Position numbers and translations under genes: made by a program | Assembly: GCA_964019415.1 (NCBI GenBank) | Contig: OZ025880.1 | Location: 6,334,585 to 6,398,584 of the forward strand | Length of the DNA stretch: 64,000 nucleotides | From: Ianthella basta | Lineage: Eukaryota > Porifera > Demospongiae > Verongiida > Ianthellidae | Reading direction: 5' to 3' | The notes under the pieces: model-generated | The model's database searches: none | Told to the model about the DNA's origin: nothing | What the model saw: only the letters and a program-made list of their open reading frames with translations | Shown: piece by piece, positions 24,415 through 62,189 of the stretch | How positions within the stretch are numbered: position 1 is the first letter of the stretch | Layout: each line of letters begins with the position of its first letter

Positions 24415-24683
24415 CTATAGTGACTCTCCTCCATTGCTGCGTGTAGCCTTGCTTGATGTTGTCTCTGCAATTTCAACAGTGTTCCGTAGAACAAAGTCAT
24501 TGCTACCATAGCACACACTGCATACGTGCACATCCAGGCCCAGTGCTAGCAATGCACACAAACCAGCAAGCAATGCCCCTTAGAGGAATGCATGTAGTCA
24601 TGTTCATTGCAACTTACGAAAGCCACCAGGTCCTCTCTCTCTTTCTCCGGCAGGCATCGATGACACAGGTTTGCCACTTGAAT
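24415..24683 (-). CDS. C-terminal alpha and beta modules with stop
   Basis: Exon 24683-24618 encodes SSGKPVSSMPAGERERG-type sequence. Exon 24464-24415 encodes TTSSKATRSNGGESL and a TAG stop. Both are phase 1-1 compatible with the donor AAAG|GTGAGA after kinase 2 (exon end 25538). They are recognisable copies of the exons at 35196-35131 and 34326-34258 (SS.PA.E+E and TT...S..GES patterns). In another phase the first exon reads IQVANLCHRCLPEKERED; the alpha/beta reading is preferred because both exons then match the earlier pair. Confidence 0.65.

Positions 24684-62189: not shown

Follow-up and report, generated by a model that had tools for sequence, protein, structure and literature searches.

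Two probable tandem DFD-kinase genes with octapeptide arrays and a collapsed boundary in the sponge Ianthella basta

The window analysed in this study is a stretch of 64,000 nucleotides of Ianthella basta (contig OZ025880.1, here C13, positions 6334585-6398584). A chain of 40 exons with GT-AG introns and without an internal stop was found on its minus strand and has been split into gene A and gene B (Table 1); the exons were read and chained by eye, and the borders and the chain were then checked by script. Comparison of the exons suggests that this DNA probably holds two neighbouring tandem paralogues, single-kinase genes of one family, whose boundary has collapsed. A single protein of 3,984 residues, proposed for this region in the first-pass annotation, is the less good reading of the sequence, which is most likely that of two genes. 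The modules of that annotation and their order were confirmed, including two protein kinase domains on the minus strand, and its positions 62189, 36278, 35196 and 24415 were recovered exactly as exon or gene borders. Its totals of about 43 exons and 3,984 residues are near those of the present chain, which has 40 exons and, when fused, 3,910 or 3,933 residues, so that a few small exons must differ and the exact chain was not reproduced. Two further candidates, a small exon that may lie near 59.4 kb and the open frame 48655-48455, were not taken into gene A, whose chain is in phase without them.

Table 1. Features of the two-kinase locus and its surroundings (window coordinates)
Feature	Position	Strand	Remarks
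Gene A	62189-34253	-	23 coding exons, 2,810 aa, one kinase; GT-AG introns, no internal stop, terminal TAG
Gene A N-terminus, three coiled-coil-like exons of ~30 aa each	61666-61571, 61260-61168, 60765-60676	-	all phase 1-1; coiled-coil-like by eye
Two copies of 60-aa exon	58377-58198, 58075-57896	-	302-bp tandem duplication, 95% matches
64-aa exon, weakly CARD-like	56123-55932	-	relatives on contigs C1 and C12
Octapeptide exon	55034-49343	-	5,692 nt, 214 units of VAPQT(A/V)QE
Gene A linker exons	49091-49055, 49010-48803, 48259-47925	-	end in DSKERKRKAMDRL
PIF/Harbinger-type transposon in gene A intron	44000-47850	.	outer limits approximate, by eye
Kinase 1, exons 1-4 of 8	40449-40167, 39712-39530, 38353-38139, 37853-37725	-	borders, motifs checked
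Kinase 1, exons 5-8 of 8	36962-36903, 36783-36721, 36555-36487, 36347-36278	-	borders, motifs checked
Alpha exon of gene A	35196-35131	-	66 nt, phase 1-1; splice sites conserved in other close units
Beta, terminal exon of gene A	34326-34253	-	ends ...TTTGTVAVSNDGESLHHSFPVAS, stop TAG 34255-34253
Collapsed junction, gene A to gene B (probable)	34252-34131	-	BLAST homology to 6.426-Mb gene stops at 34131
Gene B	34040-24415	-	17 exons, 1,123 aa from first acceptor; GT-AG introns, no internal stop
Acidic octapeptide exon 1	34040-33143	-	GSEVEDSQ, 31 units by relaxed count; TRF 29.9 copies
Exon and acidic octapeptide exon 2	31737-31640, 31534-31081	-	same pair in 6.426-Mb gene
Gene B linker exons	30028-29431, 29271-29209, 29123-29093, 28997-28951	-	
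Kinase 2	28499-28217 to 25604-25538	-	8 exons
Alpha exon of gene B, divergent	24683-24618	-	66 nt, like alpha of gene A
Beta, terminal exon of gene B	24464-24415	-	stop 24417-24415
Third, more distant DFD kinase	18562-20589		34% identity to kinase 1 in core exon; DFD read from open frame
Tail (alpha2, beta, stop) of next kinase gene upstream (6.402 Mb)	63401-63737	-	

The 60-aa exon pair of gene A, like the 64-aa exon, has relatives on contigs C1 and C12. The CARD identity of the 64-aa exon family is weak, as the best score with the Pfam CARD profile (PF00619), obtained in a relative of the gene A exon, was 15.6 bits (E = 0.017) against a cut-off of 23.9; 2 of the 12 members match this profile at E values up to 5, and a PDB profile search returned no CARD for the family. 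A death fold and a kinase are combined in one protein in RIPK2 and other kinases with death-fold domains, and gene A would resemble these only if its CARD-like exons are real, whereas the CARD signal below the Pfam cut-off, the 214 octapeptides and the DFD motif set it apart. The terminal sequence of the linker exons is common to gene A, gene B and the kinase unit at 5.42 Mb. In the PIF/Harbinger-type element, the DDE transposase (PF13359), on the minus strand, does not form one open frame but falls into separate ones, and a Myb/SANT gene (PF13837) lies on the plus strand; an inverted copy of the segment 44934-45813, with 84% identity, is found in one of the introns of the kinase gene at 5.42 Mb. 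Long intronic CA/GT dinucleotide runs were also observed at 24965-25361, 59010-59221 and 43549-43720.

The octapeptide exon, for which 213 units had been claimed, is present with 214 by a relaxed count, and its array is composed of 34 distinct DNA units and 24 distinct peptides. In the gene frame none of the 275 differences from the consensus gives a stop, against 37.2 expected from the array's own mutation spectrum, and the next frame has 77 stops against 48.8 expected; the units compared are not independent, as arrays expand by copying. By their composition, two of the six frames of the array hold hardly any stops (2 and 0, with 1.8 and 0.9 expected), and stops are also scarce in one frame of the other strand (14 against 38.6), hence the openness of the array frame is by itself no proof. 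The gene frame connects with the flanking exons. An excess of synonymous differences was found in the gene frame (94 against 57 expected) and also in one frame of the other strand (85 against 41), and since it is not specific to the gene frame, the stop count alone was used. A genome search placed 43 of its 47 matches in the array itself, the other four being weak (150 of 201 candidates scored). This 5.7-kb repeat exon represents a long coding minisatellite joined to a kinase. That the array might serve for TRAF docking (TxQE, matched 201 times in the exon) was not taken beyond an idea, the motif being present in 19% of shuffled VAPQTAQE sequences. As a separate observation, at least 150 zf-TRAF matches are present in the genome (150 of 552 candidates scored), many of them grouped on C5, C18, C3, C4 and C17.

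Hand-joined kinase 1, the only one of the two that was scanned, matched the Pfam Pkinase profile PF00069 at E = 2e-25 (90.1 bits, cut-off 31.7). The GKGGNG glycine loop, the AVKE lysine and the HRDIK motif are kept in both spliced kinases, and in both the DFG motif is absent with DFD in its place. Kinase 1 and kinase 2 are tandem paralogues with 83-95% identity in four large exons. The genome search with kinase 1 yielded 77 exon matches, which were sorted into a close and a distant group. The close group has six units (kinase 1, kinase 2, the units at 6.402, 6.426 and 5.42 Mb and a partial unit at 6.416 Mb). The distant group has 16 core-exon matches with 34-39% identity, located on C13, C2 and C15, and includes the third kinase of the window. 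The family has at least 22 units, these counts being lower bounds. Within this tandem family of kinases the DFD motif is the rule: it was found in all nine distant loci searched and also in the 6.402- and 6.426-Mb units, while the 5.42-Mb unit has DFN instead. Moreover, HND stands in place of HRD in 7 of 10 distant sequences, namely the seven in which the pattern was found. Part of the third kinase recurs at 7707-8647 with 74% DNA identity.

In MNK1 and MNK2 the DFG of the kinase domain is likewise replaced by DFD, and there, according to the accessible text of the source, the motif sits in an ATP-excluding (DFD-out) conformation (PMC3326643). On the other hand, the MNK inserts EVFTD/EAFSE are absent from kinases 1 and 2. 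No MNK was present among the 60 of 977 matches listed in the PDB search with kinase 1, these 60 being OSR1, TNIK, MAPK, PIM, PKC-theta, MAP4K4 and PHO85 entries with E values from 2e-7 to 4e-6. To our knowledge, long repeat arrays are not a feature of MNKs. A literature search for sponge kinases with a DFD motif, not aimed at this gene itself, gave no match. On the evidence at hand, the sequences point to a family of DFD kinases that appears distinct from MNK, with a very long coding minisatellite in one of its members. With at least 22 units and DFD as the rule, this family could allow the DFD resting state to be studied outside MNKs.

The reading as two genes is derived mainly from the exons that follow the kinase. 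The donor after the last kinase exon is kept in all six close units, and the exon alpha follows the kinase in each of them, clearly in five (less well at 6.416 Mb) and in divergent form in kinase 2, where the match is weak (53% over 15 residues, E = 0.12) with length and phase as in alpha. A second alpha-like exon, alpha2, is present in some units. The exon beta reaches a stop in all six units in either frame, after 10-36 residues in the frame from alpha (23 for kinase 1) and after 10-45 in the frame from alpha2. As judged from these predicted exons, an alpha-(alpha2)-beta-stop tail marks the end of each unit. Since alpha follows the kinase and beta carries a stop across the close units, the 'module alpha' that had been assigned to the part beyond kinase 1 would be the tail of kinase 1 itself. 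The continuity claimed from kinase 1 into the next module is retained in one respect, as the splice from alpha to the acidic exon is in frame, but not in the other, as alpha is the tail exon of kinase 1. Two other placements of the boundary were rejected. If kinase 1 ended at the TAG directly behind 36267 (SISKGNF and stop), this would conflict with the donor after AAAG, which all six close units have, whereas the stop met on reading through is not conserved among them. A second half that begins with alpha does not agree with the position of this exon after the kinase across the close units. In the neighbouring DNA (C13, 6404.4-6406.2 kb), the 6.402-Mb kinase gene was seen to lie behind the alpha and alpha2 exons of another copy further upstream, for which neither a kinase exon nor a beta exon was seen; the array may have a second boundary of the collapsed kind here.

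The junction between the genes is very short. BLAST homology to the 6.426-Mb relative ends about 120 bp past the gene A stop, the alignment above this point leaving room for a strongly diverged remnant, and the acceptor of acidic exon 1 lies only 212 bp beyond the gene A stop. Such a short boundary makes an in-frame read-through fusion possible. When the chain is fused through alpha it has 3,910 residues, and when fused through a GTTAGT site within beta (34258 joined to 34040) it has 3,933, both in frame. The agreement of phase across the exons had been put forward as an argument for one gene, and this argument fails: gene A alone and gene B alone are each in frame throughout, which is what 40-odd exons of two sound genes would give, and it has no bearing on fusion. 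Only the single junction added by the fusion bears on it, with a chance of frame agreement of about 1 in 3.

It may be that the locus is one transcription unit, in which gene A reads through and alpha is spliced to acidic exon 1; a protein of about 3,910 aa with both kinases would then be the main product or an isoform beside a single-kinase protein. Besides the very short junction and the frame preserved across it, this is favoured by the AG acceptor retained at acidic exon 1, by a gene B without the upstream exons of its 6.426-Mb relative and by gene A having no clear poly(A) signal, as neither AATAAA nor ATTAAA occurs from 34257 to 31701 (2.5 kb). The last is a weak point by itself, since two of the five other tails scanned, those of kinase 2 and of the 5.42-Mb unit, also have no such hexamer within about 1 kb; in the other three (6.402, 6.416 and 6.426 Mb) it is found within about 310 bp. 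Against it stand the one-in-three chance of the frame match, the terminal exon with its stop between the halves, which has counterparts with stops in all six close units and which also speaks against the claim of one 3,984-residue protein, and the genome search with kinase 1, which showed no further unit of the family with two kinases and no other kinase match near the single-kinase unit at 5.42 Mb. A single transcription unit is a possible but less likely reading.

Read-through transcripts mostly join the next-to-last exon of one gene to the second exon of the next, as far as the accessible text of the sources goes (PMC5431906, PMC5209911), and the join of alpha to the acidic exon at the A/B boundary would be of this kind. 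The locus resembles such conjoined (read-through, tandem chimeric) genes in its same-strand neighbours with a short gap and in a next-to-last exon, alpha, from which an in-frame splice to an inner exon of the neighbouring gene could be made. It differs in that gene B, the downstream gene, seems to have lost its own first exons. A further reading is that of a young gene fusion: a rearrangement would have cost one DFD-kinase gene its 3' end signal and the adjacent gene its 5' end, and both kinases would now be maintained by selection within one protein of about 3,900 residues. This reading appears rather unlikely. In its product, the array of 214 octapeptides would be flanked by the clustering modules and by the two DFD kinases. 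Two kinases in one protein have precedents in RSK, MSK, JAK, GCN2, obscurin and the plant tandem kinases (TKPs). The likeness to tandem-kinase proteins such as RSK, JAK, GCN2 and plant TKPs, with two kinase domains per chain, holds only if the fusion is made; the difference is that kinases 1 and 2 are tandem paralogues, probably in two genes.

For gene B, the acidic octapeptides claimed between the kinases were found as two exons; the stop test of acidic exon 1 gave 0 against 3.4 expected, these numbers being small. The 6.426-Mb relative has the same design of acidic array and kinase with its own upstream exons. Upstream of its acidic array four exon candidates were identified by eye, the first opening with MEDKAQ. 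Nothing in the window matches the first three, and the fourth corresponds to 31737-31640 in gene B. A genome search with the 47-aa upstream exon matched its own place only, and the two upstream exons of 14-17 aa are too short for separate genome detection. The nearest kinase match upstream of the 6.426-Mb gene is a distant one at 6.468 Mb, and this gene, like the one at 5.42 Mb, counts as a single-kinase unit, which favours the reading as two genes. These results agree with the earlier remark that the second kinase half has no convincing start: the only in-frame ATG seen is at 34029-34027, the fourth codon of acidic exon 1, and it could serve as the start of a separate gene B.

The comparison of kinase 2 with the 6.426-Mb gene over 241 codons (linker end and three large kinase exons; Nei-Gojobori script) gave 23 synonymous and 7 nonsynonymous differences and a dN/dS of 0.07. 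Over all exons compared, the ratio was 0.18-0.22 against kinase 1 and the 6.402-, 6.426- and 5.42-Mb units and 0.29 against the partial 6.416-Mb unit, the last two exons compared being far more divergent (dN 0.34-0.38). These ratios indicate that kinase 2 is under purifying selection, and such conservation suggests that it is probably expressed by some route. That gene B is a 5'-truncated copy which has lost expression would agree with its missing upstream exons; its 17 intact, stop-free exons and the small number of nonsynonymous differences to its nearest relative make this very improbable. The tight junction might also be a misassembly between near-identical tandem copies, as the identity of gene B to the 6.426-Mb gene, which lies about 64 kb away, reaches 98.6% in a 569-nt part of the first gene B linker exon. 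However, in the one assembly, the flanks of the junction (the kinase 1 tail, and acidic exon 1 with 78-80% identity to the nearest copies) are near-identical to no copy seen, and a misassembly is scarcely credible.

Under the preferred reading of two genes with a collapsed boundary, gene A would run from coiled-coil-like and weakly CARD-like exons through 214 octapeptides and a kinase to its tail and the stop at 34253, and gene B from two acidic octapeptide exons through a kinase to its tail and the stop at 24415. A rearrangement may have placed the inner exons of gene B about 0.1-0.2 kb past the gene A stop, which would leave gene B without the upstream exons of its closest relative and dependent on a new start (ATG 34029) or on a borrowed gene A transcript. 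The arrays would alter their length through amplification of units. The function of both genes can be proposed by analogy. The N-terminal modules (three coiled-coil-like exons, two duplicated 60-aa exons and the 64-aa exon) may, together with the repeat array, cluster the protein; the DFD kinase, as in MNK, may rest in an ATP-excluding state and be switched on by clustering or by phosphorylation. The locus would offer a clean test of how tandem duplicates turn into fused genes, with the single-kinase relatives as controls.

Elsewhere in the window, at 2820-14098 on the minus strand, membrane-protein-like genes in which GDTRII and SACT motifs are repeated form a tandem family. Of the two members scanned, one is below the cut-off of the Pfam profile APD1-4_N and the other matches it over the cut-off (E = 7e-8).
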